Below are positions 2-22,206 of a stretch of DNA of 64,000 bases, one piece after another. The notes under the pieces were generated by a model. That model had not been told where the DNA came from. It ran no database searches and was given only the letters and a program-made list of their open reading frames with translations. Source of the stretch: Bryobacteraceae bacterium (lineage in GTDB: Bacteria > Acidobacteriota > Terriglobia > Bryobacterales > Bryobacteraceae). The translations under genes were made by a program, and so were the position numbers. Each line of letters opens with the position of its first letter. Position 1 is the stretch's first letter. The DNA lies in assembly GCA_026002855.1 (NCBI GenBank), contig BPGD01000001.1, positions 4,038,001 to 4,102,000 of the forward strand, read 5' to 3'.

Positions 2-1309
<1,308 letters not shown>

Positions 1310-15988: not shown

Positions 15989-17932
15989 TCAGTGCGCCGT
16001 CTCGTGGGGACGTGCCGGCTGCTGACCGACGAGGCGGCGGAGGTCTTCGAGGTGGAAAGGCTTGGCCAGGCAGGCGTCCATGCCGGCGTCGAGGCAACGC
16101 TGCACGTCTTCGGCAAGCGTATGCGCGGTGAGCCCAACCACGCGGCAGCGGCACCGCCCGGCGCGCGCCTCCTGCTGCCGGAGGCGGCGCGTGGCTTCCA
16201 GCCCGTCCATCTTCGGCATCTGCACATCCATGAGGATCAGGTCCCACTGCGCCCGGAAAGCCTCCGCGACGGCCTGTTCGCCATCGCCGACCGAGCGGAC
16301 CTCATGGCCCAGGCGCTCCAGCATTCGTTCCACCGCCCGGCGATTCACGGCGTTGTCTTCGGCAAGCAGGATTCGCAGGCGAGCGTGGTTGGAAGCGGCA
16401 GGCTCGGACGCGACATCAGCCGGCAGGGGCTGCGGAGCGGGCGGCAGCGGCAGCGTGAAGAAGAACCTCGACCCCTGGCCGGGCGCGCTCTCCAGCTCCA
16501 GCGCTCCGCCCATGCGCCGCACCAGGTCTTCGCTGATAGCCAGGCCAATTCCGGCGCCGCCGTAGCGGCGCGTGATCGAGTTGTCCGCCTGGGTGAAGGC
16601 GCGGAAGATTTCGCGATGCTTGTCGCGTGGGATGCCGATGCCCGTGTCGGAAACTTCGAAGCGGACCCTGGAGCCTTTCAGGGCGCGGATCTCCAGCTTC
16701 ACGTGCCCTGACGGAGTGAATTTGACGGCGTTGTTCAGCAGGTTGAGCAGCACCTGGCGGAGGCGCTGGCCGTCGCCCACCACCAGCGGGGGAAGCGCCG
16801 GATCGATTTCCACGTCCAGCCGCAGCCCCTTGCGCTCGGCCTCGACGGCGACCAGCGGCAGACACTCATCGACAAGCGCCTGGAGGTCGAATGGCTGCCG
16901 CACGATCTCAATGCAGTTCTTCTCGATGCGGGACAGATCGAGCACGTCATTGACCAGCGCCAGAAGGTGGCCAGCGGAGCTGCGGATCGTTTCCAGATAA
17001 GAACGCTGTTCCGGGTCGAGCTGCGTGTCCAGCGCGAGTTCGGTCATCCCCAGGATGCCATTCAGCGGCGTGCGGATCTCGTGGCTCATGTTGGCGAGGA
17101 AGCGCGACTTGGCCTCTTCAGACTGTCTGGCCTCCACCATCAGCCGCCGGATCTCCGCCGTCTGGCGCCGCACGGCACGGCGCAGGAGAAAGACCCACAG
17201 GGCGCCCAGAGCCGCTGCGAGCAGGGCGATGGCCGCCGCCGTCCGGATCCAGCGAAGGTTGACCGGCTCGGGCGGCGCCAGCAGGACGACATCGCCCGAG
17301 GAACGGAGCCGGAGCTGGAATTTATTCGTCTCTTCCGGAATCAGGATTCCCGTCACCTCGACCTGCGCGCCGACCGGCGCCAGCGCAAGAAGCGCTGAGG
17401 GCGCATCGGCGCTGCGGCGGATGTAGACGCGCAGCGCCGGACTCTTCGGGCCCAGCCAGAGCACGTCCCGTGTCTCGCCAATGGAAAGCTGAACCACCTG
17501 GCCCTGGACCTTGACAAGGCTGCCGGCCGCCTGACCTTCGAGAGCGCCGGCGAGAGAAAGCGGAAGCGGGGGCGGCGGCTTTGCCGTCCCAAGCACGCCC
17601 ACCCGCGCCTGCTGAAGCATGGGTTCGATCTCGCCGTCCAGGCCGAGCTGGCCACAGGCCCGAACCCGGGCGCCGCGAAGCAGGCGCAGGTCCGCGCCGC
17701 CCTGCACCATGATGCCCGCCGTGGCGTCCTGCACGTAAAAATCGCCGGGGCCCGACCGGAGCAGCCCGGTCTCCATCGTGACCACGCCCTCCACGCAGAA
17801 CGGTTCGTGGCTGCCCCGCGCGGCCTGCCTGCGAGCGTCGGCGATGGGCCTGGCCGGAGCCGGCTGGCCTTGCTCGTTCTCGACGGCAGGCAAGGCGGCC
17901 AGAATGGCCAGGATCACGTGGGGCAAGACCAT
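15989..17932 (-). CDS. Hybrid sensor histidine kinase with OB-fold-like periplasmic domain
   Basis: The 647-residue protein has a signal or anchor at the N-terminus, a periplasmic region (about 40-220) made of two similar beta-rich segments ([17 protein letters not shown] and [17 protein letters not shown]) that look OB-fold-like, and one transmembrane helix (about 230-251). A HisKA domain follows with phospho-acceptor His284 ([10 protein letters not shown]). The HATPase has N, G1 and G2 boxes ([28 protein letters not shown]). The C-terminal receiver has [11 protein letters not shown] and a Lys in AKPF. No HPt or DNA-binding output is attached and no response regulator is adjacent, so its downstream partner must lie elsewhere. 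Confidence 0.92.
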
Positions 17933-18001
17933 GGTTCAGGTTCTCTATCGGCCGACGGGTGCCGTCGTTTTAGTCCCTGGCGGCGTCATGCTTGGGAGCC
18001 A

Positions 18002-18325
18002 TCAGGCGGCGGGCTCGCTTCCGGCGGTGTCAGGGGCCGCGGCGATCCGGCCGCCCGGCCTGAGCACGCGCAGCATCGCGGGCGTCGGCGCATCCGGAGA
18101 TTCATCCAGAATGAGGTCGAACCAGGCGTCGACCCACGGGATGTCGGCGCGGTCGCCCTCGACGAACATCACGTGGTCGAGGTCGGCGCACTCCCTGCGT
18201 GCGGCAGCGATTTCGTCCCGGTTGCCGAGGCCGACCAGCGCGCCTTCGGCAACGCGCAACGCAAGCGCGCGCAGGTCCCGCATCTGGCGCAGCGAGGTGA
18301 GCAGCACCCGGTCGGCGGGCCCCAT
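18002..18325 (-). CDS. Short methyltransferase-like protein, SAM motif degenerate
   Basis: The 107-residue product resembles a shortened class I methyltransferase core. EGALVGLGNRDEIAAARREC stands where motif I and the following acidic loop would be, then FDLILDESPD and AMLRVLRPGGRIA, which match the late motifs. The Asp/Glu-x-Gly-x-Gly of motif I is not intact, so catalysis is doubtful. The start at 18325 fits the family-like beginning (MGPADRVLL). An ATG at 18379 would add 18 residues but would run through the marR palindromes. The gene is divergent from marR and may share its control region. Confidence 0.55.
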   Translation of the reverse strand: MGPADRVLLTSLRQMRDLRALALRVAEGALVGLGNRDEIAAARRECADLDHVMFVEGDRADIPWVDAWFDLILDESPDAPTPAMLRVLRPGGRIAAAPDTAGSEPAA

Positions 18326-18353
18326 ACTGGCGAATCTATCATGCGCTACCCCC

Positions 18354-18397
18354 TTGACGCGGGCGCGCAATAATGACATTATTTAGGAGTCCTAAAT
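18354..18397 (+). promoter_or_regulatory. marR promoter with two adjoining perfect palindromes (probable operators)
   Basis: TTGACG (18354-18359), a 17-bp spacer and CATTAT (18377-18382) make a plausible promoter. Palindrome 1, AATAATGACATTATT (18369-18383, 7-1-7), covers the -10. Palindrome 2, ATTTAGGAGTCCTAAAT (18381-18397, 8-1-8), overlaps the AGGAG ribosome-binding site and ends at the base before the ATG. The TTAG...CTAA arms resemble operators of the MarR/SlyA family, so autorepression is likely. If CATTAT is the true -10, transcription would begin inside the Shine-Dalgarno sequence, giving a nearly leaderless mRNA. Confidence 0.65.
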
Positions 18398-19084
18398 ATG
18401 CCGCGGGAAGAGCCTGTTTCCATCCGGATCGCAGCGGGCCTGGCGCGCCTGTCGCTGGTGCTGCGCCACCACGGCTGGCAGGCGGCCGGGCGGCAGTCGC
18501 TGACGCCGACGCAGGCGCAGATTCTGGCCCTTCTGGCCGCGCATTCGCCGGCGGGGCTGCGCCTGGGCGACATCGCCGCCCGGCTGGCCGTGACCGCCCC
18601 CACGGCCAGCGACGCAGCCGCGGCGCTGGAGGCCAAGGGGCTGGTGCGGAAGTCCCGGGACCGGAGCGATGCGCGCGCGGTCCGGTTCCGCCTGACGGCG
18701 AGAGGGAGGCGGGCGGCGGAGGCGGCGCAGCAATGGCCGGACTACCTGCTGGCGGCCGTGGACGAACTGCCCGCTCCGATGCAGGAGCATCTGCTGGCTG
18801 CGCTCATGGCGATGATCCGCTCGCTCCAACAGCAGGGGCGCATCCCGGTTGCCCGCATGTGCACCAACTGCCGTTACTTTGAACCCGACCGCTTTCCCGG
18901 CGCCGGGGAGCCTCACTTCTGCCATTTCGTCGGCGCGCCGTTCGGCGTGCGCAGTTTCCGCATGGATTGTCCGGATTTTGTGCCTGCCGCGGAGGAAATC
19001 CAGCAGGCCAACCAGCGCGTCCTCATCGATCCCAATCCGGTGAAAGGAGACCAACATGACACAACCCGCGATTCCAGGCTATGA
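18398..19084 (+). CDS. MarR-family regulator with C-terminal Cys4 domain
   Basis: Residues 1-145 form a winged-helix MarR domain (LRLGDIAARLAVTAPTASDAA recognition region, then the wing RKSRDRSDARAVRFRLT). Residues 150-195 add a cysteine module, C155-T-N-C158-R-Y-F-E-P ... C175 ... D-C191-P-D-F, that could hold zinc or an iron-sulfur cluster and act as the sensor. The protein overlaps the following protoglobin gene by 29 bp in another frame, so the two are almost certainly one operon. Because the partner binds diatomic gases, I infer control by NO, O2 or redox state. Two palindromes in the promoter suggest self-regulation. Confidence 0.85.
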   Translation: MPREEPVSIRIAAGLARLSLVLRHHGWQAAGRQSLTPTQAQILALLAAHSPAGLRLGDIAARLAVTAPTASDAAAALEAKGLVRKSRDRSDARAVRFRLTARGRRAAEAAQQWPDYLLAAVDELPAPMQEHLLAALMAMIRSLQQQGRIPVARMCTNCRYFEPDRFPGAGEPHFCHFVGAPFGVRSFRMDCPDFVPAAEEIQQANQRVLIDPNPVKGDQHDTTRDSRL

Positions 19085-19649
19085 CTACGGTTCGGCGGCG
19101 CTGGCGCGCTCGCCAGTGAGTGTGGAGGATCTGGAGCTGCTCAGGAAAACCGTTCTGTTTACGGCCGAGGACGAGGCGGCGCTGCGGAAGTCGAAGGAGA
19201 TTCTCGAGCCGCAGGTGGAGCAGATCCTCGACGTCTGGTACGGATTCGTCGGCTCGAACCCGCACCTGGTGGCCGCCTTCTGCGACCCGGCCACGGGCCA
19301 GCCGGACACGCACTATCTGGAGGCCGTGCGCCGGCGCTTCGGCCAGTGGATCCTTGATACGGCCAGCGCCCGCTACGATCAGGCCTGGCTCGATTACCAG
19401 CACGAGATCGGCCTGCGGCATCACCGCACGAAGAAAAACCGCACCGACGGCGCGCTCGGATCAGCCCATGTGCCCTTCCGTTACCTGGTGGCGCTGCTGT
19501 ATCCGGTGACGGCGACGCTGCGGCCGTTTCTTGAAAAGGGCGGCACCGCACCGCAGGAGGTCGAGAAGATGCATCAGGCGTGGATCAAGAGCGTGCTGAT
19601 GCAGGTGATCCTCTGGTCCTGGCCGTATGTAAAGGACGGCGACTTCTGA
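19056..19649 (+). CDS. Protoglobin-domain protein
   Basis: The 197-residue single-domain protein matches the protoglobin family: SVEDLELLRKTVLFTAEDE, VLDVWYGFVGSNPHLV-type helix B-C region, RRFGQWILDT, then LDYQHEIGLRHHRTKKNRTDG (110-130), which holds the probable heme-ligating His, and FRYLVALLYPVTATLRPFL. No output domain is attached, so it is a stand-alone heme protein that binds O2, CO or NO and is not a globin-coupled sensor. It starts inside the end of marR, with GAAAGGAG 8-9 nt before its ATG. The C-terminus (KSVLMQVILWSWPYV) is typical and complete. Confidence 0.88.
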   Translation: MTQPAIPGYDYGSAALARSPVSVEDLELLRKTVLFTAEDEAALRKSKEILEPQVEQILDVWYGFVGSNPHLVAAFCDPATGQPDTHYLEAVRRRFGQWILDTASARYDQAWLDYQHEIGLRHHRTKKNRTDGALGSAHVPFRYLVALLYPVTATLRPFLEKGGTAPQEVEKMHQAWIKSVLMQVILWSWPYVKDGDF

Positions 19650-19856
19650 CGTCCGCCGGGCGCCGCTGCCGGGCGCAACTCCCGGCTCAGCGCCTGCCCT
19701 GCCCGGGCGGCGCCCGCGCCGCCTGTCCCAAAGGCCAATCGGAGCCATAGGCGCACGGGTCTGGATCCCGGGGCCTCGACCATTCATCCTGTAAGAAGCA
19801 GGGCGTCACCGGCTCTTGCGGAGGGAAAACGATTTTCGTTCAATAATGGTTATCGG

Positions 19857-20306
19857 ATGCGATCTCATCTCGGGCTGAGAATGGAGGAGTTCCGCCAGCG
19901 CTGCCGCGAGGCCGGTCTGGCGCTCACCCATCAGCGCGAGGCGATTTACCGGGCCGTGCTGGAATCCGAAGACCACCCTTCGCCGGAAGCCATCTATGCG
20001 AAGGTGAGGAAACGGATCCCGGCGATTTCGCTGGCAACGGTATACAAGAACATCCGCACGTTTCTCGAGGCGGGGCTGTTGCGGGAGGTCACACTCCACC
20101 ACGGCACGCTCCGTCTGGAACCGGACGAGGCCGAACACCACCATCTGGTGTGCGTTCGCTGCAAGGCGATCCTCGACCTCGAAGCGGAGGCGGTTACGCC
20201 CGTGCGTCTGCGGCGCAGTCCGCCGGCGGGCTACCGGATTCTGCGCTGCCACGTGGAATTCCAGGGGCTTTGCCCGGCCTGCGCGGCGAAAACAGCCAGG
20301 AATTGA
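19857..20306 (+). CDS. perR: Fur-family regulator, PerR type
   Basis: The 149-residue protein (or 141 if it starts at the ATG at 19881, where relatives begin MEEFRQRC) has the Fur winged helix (ALTHQREAIYRAVL, ISLATVYKNIRTFLEAGLL). It is followed by the metal-binding dimerisation domain with EHHHLVCVRCK and GLCPACA, the two CxxC zinc pairs. Next to ahpC and ahpD this is most likely a peroxide-sensing PerR-type repressor. An inverted repeat AACGA-TTT-TCGTT (19828-19840) lies just upstream and could be an operator, but it does not match the known PerR box closely. The 207-bp gap on the left has no gene. Confidence 0.85.
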   Translation: MRSHLGLRMEEFRQRCREAGLALTHQREAIYRAVLESEDHPSPEAIYAKVRKRIPAISLATVYKNIRTFLEAGLLREVTLHHGTLRLEPDEAEHHHLVCVRCKAILDLEAEAVTPVRLRRSPPAGYRILRCHVEFQGLCPACAAKTARN

Positions 20307-20341
20307 TCCTGTAATTACCAAGAAAAGGAGTTCGAAAACAC

Positions 20342-20878
20342 ATGCTCGGAGTTGGACAGAAATTCCCCGATTTCAACCTGAAAGCGACGGTCGACACGGA
20401 CCTGAAGAAGGCCTTCACCGATGTTTCCCTTGACACCTACAAGGGCAAGTGGAAGGTGATTTTCTTCTGGCCGAAGGATTTCACCTTCGTCTGCCCGACC
20501 GAGATCGTCGGTTTCGCGAAGCTCCACAAGGACTTCACGGACCGGGATGCGGTTGTTCTCGGTTGCAGCACCGACAGCGAGTTCGTCCACCTCGCCTGGC
20601 GGCAGCATCACCCGGACCTGAAGGACCTGCCCTTCCCGATGCTGGCCGACATCAAGCGCGAGCTGACGGCGGCCCTTGGCATCCTGGATCCGGTGGCGGG
20701 CGTTGCCCAGCGCGCCACCTACATCGTGGACCCGGACAACATCATCCGCTTCGTCATGGTGACGGACCTGAATGTCGGCCGCAACGTGAACGAGGTGCTG
20801 CGCGTGCTCGACGCCCTTCAGACCGACGAACTCTGCCCCTGCAACTGGCAGAAGGGCCAGGAAACGATCCACATCTGA
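20342..20878 (+). CDS. ahpC: Alkyl hydroperoxide reductase C (typical 2-Cys peroxiredoxin)
   Basis: This 178-residue cytoplasmic peroxiredoxin reduces H2O2 and organic hydroperoxides. The peroxidatic Cys lies in FWPKDFTFVCPTEIV (about residue 52). The resolving Cys is in DELCPCNW near the C-terminus, where an extra Cys makes a CxC. AAGGAG lies 11 nt before the ATG, and the gene begins 35 bp after perR. With no ahpF nearby, its reductant is probably AhpD encoded next. The length and the C-terminal sequence (QKGQETIHI) fit the AhpC group that pairs with AhpD. Confidence 0.94.
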   Translation: MLGVGQKFPDFNLKATVDTDLKKAFTDVSLDTYKGKWKVIFFWPKDFTFVCPTEIVGFAKLHKDFTDRDAVVLGCSTDSEFVHLAWRQHHPDLKDLPFPMLADIKRELTAALGILDPVAGVAQRATYIVDPDNIIRFVMVTDLNVGRNVNEVLRVLDALQTDELCPCNWQKGQETIHI

Positions 20879-20894
20879 CACAGACCCTACGTCT

Positions 20895-20929
20895 GCGGCG
20901 GAACGTCCCGGCAGGGGAGGTTCCGCCGC
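20895..20929 (+). terminator. Hairpin between ahpC and ahpD
   Basis: A perfect 10-bp stem (GCGGCGGAAC, loop of 15, GTTCCGCCGC) sits 17 nt after the ahpC stop. A short T run follows only 13 nt later (GCTTTTTCC, 20941-20949). The hairpin may limit read-through into ahpD or stabilise ahpC mRNA, giving more AhpC than AhpD. Confidence 0.5.
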
Positions 20930-20962
20930 CCTGCCCCAAAGCTTTTTCCCGGAGACATGGAG

Positions 20963-21487
20963 ATGACGCTTGCCGAAATTGCCGAGTCCCTGCCTGCCTA
21001 TGCGCGGGACCTGAAACTGAACCTTCAGAACGTTCTCGCCCAGCAGGAGTTGACCGAACAGCAGACCTGGACGGTGGCCGTGGCCTGCGCGCTGGCCTGC
21101 CGCAACGAAACGCTGAGCCGGGCGGTACTGGCCGAAGCGGCGGCGAAGCTTGCGCCGCAGCAGCTCGACTCGGCCAGGGCGGCCTTCGCCATCATGGAGA
21201 TGAACAACATCTATTACCGCTTCCGGCACATGCTGGACCGGGACGAGTATGCCAACATCCCGGCACGGCTGCGCATGCAGGCGATCCGCATGCACGGAGG
21301 CGATCCGGTGGATTTTGAGCTGGCCTGTCTGGCCGCCTCGTCAATCAACGGCTGCGAGGCCTGCATCCGCTCGCATGAGGCCACGGTGCGGGAGAAAGGC
21401 GTCACGCCGGAGGCCGTGGTTGCGGCGGTGCGCATCGCGGCCACGCTGCACGCCGTCGCCGCCGTTCTGGAAGCCCCGTCCAACTGA
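20963..21487 (+). CDS. ahpD: Alkyl hydroperoxidase D (carboxymuconolactone-decarboxylase fold)
   Basis: The 174-residue all-helical protein carries the AhpD catalytic motif, NGCEACIRSHE (CxxC with a downstream His). AhpD proteins use this dithiol to reduce AhpC via lipoylated partner enzymes. The N-terminal half has the family pattern SLPAYARDLKLNLQNVL. The start at 20963 was preferred over 20957 because GGAG lies 8 nt upstream of it and relatives begin MTLxEI. It converges with the ABC ATPase gene. A GC-rich inverted repeat lies in the 41-bp gap but has no T-tract. Confidence 0.93.
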   Translation: MTLAEIAESLPAYARDLKLNLQNVLAQQELTEQQTWTVAVACALACRNETLSRAVLAEAAAKLAPQQLDSARAAFAIMEMNNIYYRFRHMLDRDEYANIPARLRMQAIRMHGGDPVDFELACLAASSINGCEACIRSHEATVREKGVTPEAVVAAVRIAATLHAVAAVLEAPSN

Positions 21488-21528
21488 CGCCTGCCTCCAG
21501 CCGGCCGCGCGGCGCCGCTCGGCCGGCC

Positions 21529-22206
21529 TCAGCCCTCCCGGACCACGCGGCCGTCGCGCATGTGGAGAATGCGGTCGGCGTAAGCGGCGGCCTCGGGGTT
21601 GTGGGTGATCATCAGGATGGTCTGTCCGAAGCGGTGATTGAGATCACGCAGCAGGCTCAGCACGGCCTCGCTGTTGGCAGTATCGAGGTTGCCCGTGGGT
21701 TCGTCGGCGAGAAGGATGGCAGGGCGGTTGACGAGCGCGCGCGCAATGGCCACGCGCTGCTGCTCGCCGCCTGAAAGCGCCCGCGGCTTGTGGTGGAGGC
21801 GGTGCTCGATGCCCAACAGGCGGATGATTTCCAGAAAATCCTGTTCCAGCGGCCCCTTTCTGCCTCCAAAATAGCGGGCGATTTCGATGTTTCCGAGCGC
21901 CGTCAGCGTCGGCAACAGGTTGTAGCGCTGGAAAACAAAGCCGACTTTTTTTCGCCGCAGCCGCGTGCGTTCGGTGTCGCTCATCTGCGAAAGATCCTGC
22001 CCGTCGACGATCACCTGGCCGGAGGTGATCGAGGTGAGACCGCCGATCACATGGAACAGGGTCGATTTTCCGGATCCCGAGGGGCCGACGATGCTGACGA
22101 ATTCGCCGCGGGGCACCTCCATCGAGACGCCGCGGAGGGCGTGCACGTCGACTTCGCCCACGTGGTAGATCTTGCGGAGGTCGCGAACGATGATGATCGG
22201 TTCCAC
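21529..22206 (-). CDS. ABC transporter ATP-binding protein, MacB/LolD type
   Basis: The 225-residue ATPase has Walker [10 protein letters not shown], signature [13 protein letters not shown], Walker [13 protein letters not shown] and the switch His (MITHNPEAA). The sequence is typical of the subfamily that powers MacB-, LolCDE- or FtsX-like mechanotransmission permeases. It starts with GTG 14 bp after the permease stop and forms one operon with it. Cargo unknown. Confidence 0.92.

Follow-up and report, generated by a model that had tools for sequence, protein, structure and literature searches.

What controls a stand-alone protoglobin gene, and in response to which signal, is a question raised by two overlapping genes in a 64,000-nucleotide stretch of the genome of a Bryobacteraceae bacterium (hereafter, the window). 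The first gene (18398-19084, + strand) encodes a MarR-family regulator of 228 amino acids with a C-terminal module of four cysteines (Cys4), and the second (19056-19649, + strand) a single-domain protoglobin of 197 amino acids. An initial annotation had described a 29-bp overlap between them, and the open reading frames, coordinates and strands bear this out, the shared segment being 19056-19084. As read from the sequence, each gene is preceded by an AGGAG ribosome-binding site, that of the regulator (18385-18389, + strand) lying within the predicted operator described below and that of the protoglobin (19045-19049, + strand) within the MarR frame.

The regulator matches the Pfam families MarR_2 (E 7.9e-13, 48.8 bits against a cut-off of 27) and MarR (45 bits, cut-off 24.6), and its relatives align across most of its length. 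The globin matches PF11563 over residues 24-195 of 197 (E 4.2e-33, 115 bits, cut-off 25), and its top match among PDB sequences is the protoglobin of Methanosarcina acetivorans (E 4.4e-78), homologous over residues 4-197, with the W, Y, F and H residues kept in the window globin. Across 20 aligned protoglobins, W61 and F95 are conserved in every sequence, H122 in 19 (with one gap) and Y62 in 17; we take these four to be the haem-pocket residues of the window globin, with H122 presumably the proximal haem ligand. The cut-off passed, the lack of any extra domain and the alignment of H122 with the conserved histidine identify a single-domain protoglobin. A globin-coupled sensor was considered and ruled out, as the protein holds one Pfam domain only and no signalling domain. 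A search of 17500-22000 against Rfam at the gathering threshold gave no match.

Both genes lie downstream of one predicted promoter and operator, in support of the earlier suggestion that they are expressed together. The promoter search returned a sigma-70-type site, TTGACG-17-CATTAT with TG before the -10 box (18354-18382, + strand), which is the only promoter-like match on either strand between 18250 and 21600 (mean of 0.2 in shuffled sequences); no second such site for the protoglobin gene was found in that interval. The predicted operator TATTTAGGA-G-TCCTAAATA (18380-18398, no strand assigned) is a perfect 19-bp palindrome with 9-bp arms that covers the -10 box, the ribosome-binding site and the first base of the MarR ATG. 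On the basis of its position and its conservation, autorepression is the natural reading of the window regulator, which probably controls the protoglobin gene as well. It is quite improbable that the protein is instead an O2 or redox sensor that activates the globin gene for O2 storage or sensing: protoglobin is described as binding O2, but an operator set on the -10 box and the start codon occupies a repressor's position, and the window globin carries no signalling domain.

In the 4.44-Mb genome that contains the window, the predicted operator is the sole place within two mismatches of the 15-mer TTTAGGANTCCTAAA, against 10 for the reversed control, and no second copy was found between 10001 and 30000 of the window with one mismatch allowed. 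With no further site at the former tolerance, a large regulon was rejected, and the MarR-protoglobin operon may be this genome's sole strong target. The other side of the operator adjoins the start codon of a short methyltransferase-like frame (18002-18379, - strand; Pfam match below cut-off), which, because of this position, could be divergently controlled.

The pairing of regulator and protoglobin is not due to chance. A close protoglobin (E to 1e-20) is present in 14 of 396 genomes of the same phylum, and a search with a profile of the Cys4 module finds the module in 28, a lower bound because one genome (G188) carries the module yet escaped the search. Five genomes hold both, where about one would be expected by chance, and in four of these the two genes lie within about 1.3 kb of each other, three times adjacent on the same strand and once divergent: they overlap in G000, the regulator stands immediately 5' of the globin on the same strand in G315 and G326, and the pair is divergent in G204, with a CN-hydrolase gene in between on the regulator's strand. 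In G082 they are found on two short contigs. The co-occurrence, which the initial annotation had proposed to count across genomes, is repeated on plasmids, seven records of which carry a protoglobin, two of them with a Cys4-MarR gene nearby. On the Agarilytica plasmid regulator and globin are divergent and 111 bp apart, and on the Hymenobacter plasmid the order is catalase, hyp238, HTHP, protoglobin, DUF2024, one further gene and the regulator, with hmpA and an Rrf2 gene upstream of the catalase. A pairing of HTHP with protoglobin was not found in the literature searched, and a tree built from 20 protoglobins spoke neither for nor against a single clade of regulator-linked globins. That MarR and protoglobin are accidental neighbours is hardly credible. 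Such a view could draw on the 43 of 49 Cys4-MarR loci without a protoglobin and on the nine of 14 same-phylum genomes in which a close protoglobin occurs with no detected Cys4 module, but it is already disfavoured by the linkage counts, by the recurrence on plasmids of two named phyla and by an operator at the protoglobin start in G204.

A different type of regulator accompanies some other protoglobins. On the Halalkalicoccus and Natrinema plasmids and in G086, G267 and G333 (L073, L075, L091, L092, L146), an HxlR-type gene stands divergent from a protoglobin that has no Cys4-MarR gene. The cysteine of a GCKW motif is kept in the four sequences read of these five, Pfam HxlR matches both of those scanned, and the Halalkalicoccus protein matches the model of the redox factor RrpB weakly (37.9 bits, cut-off 175). 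Like the Cys4-MarR proteins, these are small winged-helix regulators with cysteine, encoded beside a protoglobin gene; unlike them, they are about 105-137 residues long and have no C-terminal module.

The four-cysteine module is a genuine conserved feature of the MarR protein, as the initial annotation had supposed. In the window regulator it comprises Cys155, Cys158, Cys175 and Cys191 (18860-18970, + strand), spaced C-x2-C-x16-C-x15-C and aligned in 25 members of the family. The pattern C-x2-C-x10..17-C-x15-C is intact in all 52 regulators examined, of which 25 come from an alignment picked for the module and 27 from outside it, the latter including the regulators of 10 plasmid loci (L065, L157-L165) found without the module profile. 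Weaker MarR relatives are often without it (5/23 matches). No Pfam or NCBIfam match reaches the Cys155-191 stretch; the module alone matches no Pfam family, its profile gave single weak matches for five families, and the best PDB match of the profile is ribosomal protein L32 (E 0.025), followed mostly by ferritin. Four cysteines conserved at fixed distances are more suggestive of a metal or Fe-S centre than of one peroxidatic thiol. In OhrR and MgrA, which share the MarR winged helix with the window regulator, an oxidant causes release from DNA. MgrA is described as a MarR-type oxidative-stress sensor (PMC9268430). The 40 matched PDB sequences, OhrR included, align only to residue 146 of the query and thus stop short of the Cys4 tail. 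A two-row alignment (P0001, L004) gave a poor AlphaFold model (pLDDT 59.9), on which no claim is built.

Relatives of the regulator are widespread. Among 72,556 plasmid records, tblastn with the whole protein matched 37, the match spanning 80% or more of the query in 34; these first-branch records include Nostoc, Sinorhizobium, Ensifer, Paraburkholderia, Deinococcus, Hymenobacter and Spirosoma. A second branch came to light next to the protoglobin gene of Agarilytica and has matches in 202 plasmid records, including Phaeobacter, Enterobacter, Thermus, Azospirillum and one Pseudomonas aeruginosa; because the query holds a MarR domain, ordinary MarR proteins may account for some of them. A contig scan gave two loci, one in a Planctomycetota MAG with the Cys4 module (L004) and one without it (L005). 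No relative of the regulator was found in the viral contigs scanned, nor, by a pattern scan, of the protoglobin. We found no description of the Cys4-MarR family or its operator in the literature searched, which left most subscription journals outside, and no match there for PA0941/PA0940.

A predicted operator core, TAGGANTCCTA, newly recognised here, is common to loci of the regulator family. Although it was first read off some of the same loci later counted, it occurs exactly 25 times, at 22 of 43 type-1 loci (415,892 bases, with L065, L165, L188 and L189 among the 43), and 23 of these cores lie at most 150 bp from where a regulator or partner frame begins. In 29 controls with permuted half-sites the mean was 0.21 hits (largest 2), none near frame starts. 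With one mismatch there are 40 hits at 33 loci, 35 of them near starts, against control means of 7.9 hits (largest 22) overall and 0.4 (largest 2) near starts. When all 1024 five-base half-sites are compared, TAGGA matches the most loci (19/39, a set without L065), the next best matching nine. The second branch has its own core, TATCGANTCGATA, with four exact hits at three of nine loci, all near frame starts and none in 179 controls; one mismatch raises this to seven hits at six loci, again all near starts (control mean 0.13, largest 2).

In G204 a type-1 site separates the start of the protoglobin gene from the divergent CN-hydrolase-regulator pair; the Agarilytica plasmid has two weaker copies, with two mismatches each, between regulator and globin; and the Hymenobacter plasmid has a two-mismatch palindrome just 5' of the gene run that holds the globin and another elsewhere in the locus. 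A one-mismatch variant about 390 bp before the unlinked globin of G082 is suggestive only. Genome-wide, 12 of 55 genomes have exact TTAGGANTCCTAA, at 13 places in all; it is present in 11 of 26 genomes with a type-1 regulator versus one of 29 without, and 10 of the 13 places are at the regulator locus; the total is not above that of the reversed control (15 places in the 55 genomes), and only the location is special. Overlap with a promoter recurs as well: at 34 operator sites, one of which (L188) was placed one base off, the best overlapping -35/-10 pair scores a mean of 8.5 out of 12, versus 5.8 in shuffles. It beats at least 95% of shuffles at 16 of the 34 sites and not at the other 18, and at three of the 16 TTGACA and TATAAT are perfect.

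Even with one mismatch allowed, no core is found at 10 of the 43 type-1 loci, and variant palindromes occur in some of them. Palindromes of the forms TTAGCNNNGCTAA and TTCGGANTCCGAA were seen near regulator or P460 starts at some loci (L079, L150, L151, L153, L154, L080), which suggests that the operator drifts along with the regulator. An exact operator away from the regulator was noted at L167:1501 (G154:C27:26583), about 90 bp before a small helix-hairpin-helix gene that looks ComEA-like by eye, a possible extra target at that locus.

The initial annotation had extended the unit to the genes that follow it, perR-ahpC-ahpD. Their downstream position is as described (19857-21487, same strand), and Pfam FUR, AhpC-TSA and CMD are over cut-off in the block; the NCBIfam models for PerR, AhpC and full-length AhpD are below their cut-offs, that for the AhpD core domain above. 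Membership of the unit did not hold up: a 207-bp gap follows the protoglobin gene, and the PerR, AhpC and AhpD of the window are unmatched in the stretches taken from either side of the MarR and protoglobin genes of G204, G315, G326, Hymenobacter and Agarilytica. A conserved unit or shared operator control that includes these genes was rejected, there being no operator copy at the block. It is accordingly very improbable that the two genes form one segment of an extended perR-ahpC-ahpD oxidative-stress block, even though these are the next genes on the same strand.

The signal was approached through the genes that accompany the regulator elsewhere. Partners were counted over 49 loci (39 type-1, Thermus and nine second-branch, with L065 left out), which include 26 of the 28 module-bearing genomes; the plasmid neighbourhoods read comprise 15 of the 37 first-branch and six of the 202 second-branch records, plus two reached via globin or hyp238. 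Hmp hits (a Nostoc globin at 52 bits and another at 26 bits) and one HHE438 hit (26 bits) were excluded. Because the partner queries came from the loci themselves, the counts express recurrence and are not an independent test. The most frequent partner is hyp238 (15 loci), followed by thioredoxin (9, with glutaredoxin-like proteins at 2 more), a peroxiredoxin-like redoxin (9), MOSC (7), cytochrome P460 (7), protoglobin (6), DUF2024 (6), GATase (3), AhpD-like (3), DUF438-hemerythrin (2 strong), YgbA (2), Fer4 (2) and thiol peroxidase, NnrS and CN-hydrolase (1 each); five loci have none of the listed families.

Several partners point to nitrogen oxides. Eleven P460 genes occur in 10 of the 28 module-bearing genomes, seven of them within about 0.8 kb of the regulator, and a further link is found on Thermus pTT27, where an operator with one mismatch precedes the P460 gene. 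YgbA has seven matches in the 28 genomes, six over cut-off and two beside the regulator; the four strongest (G302, G326, G356, G363) are away from it, with no operator in the 2 kb around each. The gene ygbA is under NsrR control, and the Pfam label of YgbA_NO is 'Nitrous oxide-stimulated promoter'. In ammonia oxidisers, cytochrome P460 detoxifies hydroxylamine to N2O, according to an excerpted source (PMC9478400), and NsrR represses the hemerythrin-like ric/ytfE genes, as another gives it (PMC9268430).

The proposal that the regulator may read NO through its cysteines is backed in part by P460, YgbA, hemerythrin, the Hmp-Rrf2 genes of Hymenobacter and NnrS near one locus; the thioredoxin and peroxiredoxin partners fit a thiol or peroxide signal. 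Protoglobin accompanies the regulator at a minority of loci (6/49), and the commoner thioredoxin/glutaredoxin (11), peroxiredoxin-like (9) and hyp238 (15) partners would fit thiol or peroxide stress equally. A zinc or disulfide thiol switch, in which peroxide, hypochlorite or disulfide stress frees the repressor and the protoglobin acts as a haem peroxidase or redox protein, is a less likely reading, and the strongest of the alternatives. It would account for the thioredoxin, glutaredoxin, thiol peroxidase, redoxin and AhpD-like neighbours, several with an operator at their start, and would agree with the cysteine kept in all four HxlR-type proteins read beside other protoglobins, one of them weakly RrpB-like. 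No role in thiol stress is obvious, however, for P460, YgbA, hemerythrin, NnrS or the nearby Hmp-Rrf2 genes, and at several loci a partner of this kind is the only one among those listed.

On balance we favour, with moderate confidence, an autorepressed two-gene stress operon that responds to NO, a reading which builds on the gene order, the overlap of the frames, the operator on the promoter, its conservation, the four cysteines and the linkage. A Cys4-MarR dimer, its four C-terminal cysteines holding a metal or Fe-S centre, would bind TATTTAGGAGTCCTAAATA and, lying over the -10 box and the start codon, would block its own promoter. On attack of the centre by nitric oxide, or by a related reactive species of nitrogen or oxygen, the repressor would let go, and the protoglobin, made from the overlapping gene, would scavenge or convert the reactive species. 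We infer repression, the presence of a metal or Fe-S centre, the role of NO as principal inducer and detoxification by the globin, and our confidence in the statement as a whole is held down by the thioredoxin and peroxiredoxin partners, given which the signal may instead be a thiol or peroxide one. The M. acetivorans protoglobin binds NO, and its excerpted description has it reducing nitrite and isomerising peroxynitrite (PMC4020757). In the window genome PF00042 globins and NnrS gave no match, and the protoglobin could therefore be a main NO sink there; P460 and YgbA are likewise unmatched in this genome.

The closest precedent for an NO-responsive repressor of this kind is ArnR of Corynebacterium, a winged-helix protein with a C-terminal, cysteine-ligated [4Fe-4S] cluster that, in the excerpted account, represses the globin gene hmp and loses DNA binding in the presence of NO (PMC12343034). 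By that description, ArnR differs in having three conserved cysteines (179, 193 and 223), compared with 155, 158, 175 and 191 in the window regulator, and its homologues are almost confined to Actinobacteria (PMC12343034). NsrR, an NO-responsive repressor whose principal target is given as hmp in the same text (PMC12343034), has the Rrf2 fold, whereas no Rrf2 domain is present among the 21 Pfam families listed for the window regulator at E up to 1. For the M. acetivorans protoglobin, two abstracts on it name no regulator.

More tentatively, and with rather less confidence than in the operon itself, we propose that the Cys4-MarR proteins constitute an undescribed, widespread family of sensors of NO or reactive nitrogen, with an Fe-S or metal centre of their own, separate from NsrR, NorR, FNR and ArnR, acting through operators TTAGGANTCCTAA or GTATCGANTCGATAC according to branch, and that they would be the first known regulator of protoglobin and cytochrome P460. 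The biological role of the M. acetivorans protoglobin was called still unknown in 2013 (PMC3680402, as excerpted); a conserved regulator, an operator and a list of partners make the role of protoglobin directly testable, by asking which chemical frees the repressor. Because Cys4-MarR genes neighbour those for P460, YgbA, hemerythrin and thiol-redox proteins across several phyla, the results of a single biochemical study would point to inducers of many stress operons that have yet to be characterised, those with hyp238 included.

The hyp238 product is a predicted exported protein of about 240 residues, found at 15 of the 49 Cys4-MarR loci (L060, L062-L064, L066, L068, L069, L078, L089, L095, L148, L149, L157, L164 and L166) and also at L065:4663-5379, with an operator copy at its start in several. 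No family match was obtained in Pfam (five sequences scanned), NCBIfam (two, with one chance-level hit) or PHROG (one). In the second branch, a Pseudomonas aeruginosa plasmid (L159:2527-4034) and an Enterobacter locus (L160) have the Cys4-MarR gene divergent from genes for a thioredoxin or glutaredoxin, DUF2024 and a Rho-binding antiterminator, with a GTATCGA-type operator between the two sides. Elsewhere in the window, a frame at 56-1309 (+ strand) resembles by eye a sigma-54 activator with an N-terminal cysteine-rich stretch, and is perhaps another metal or redox sensor.
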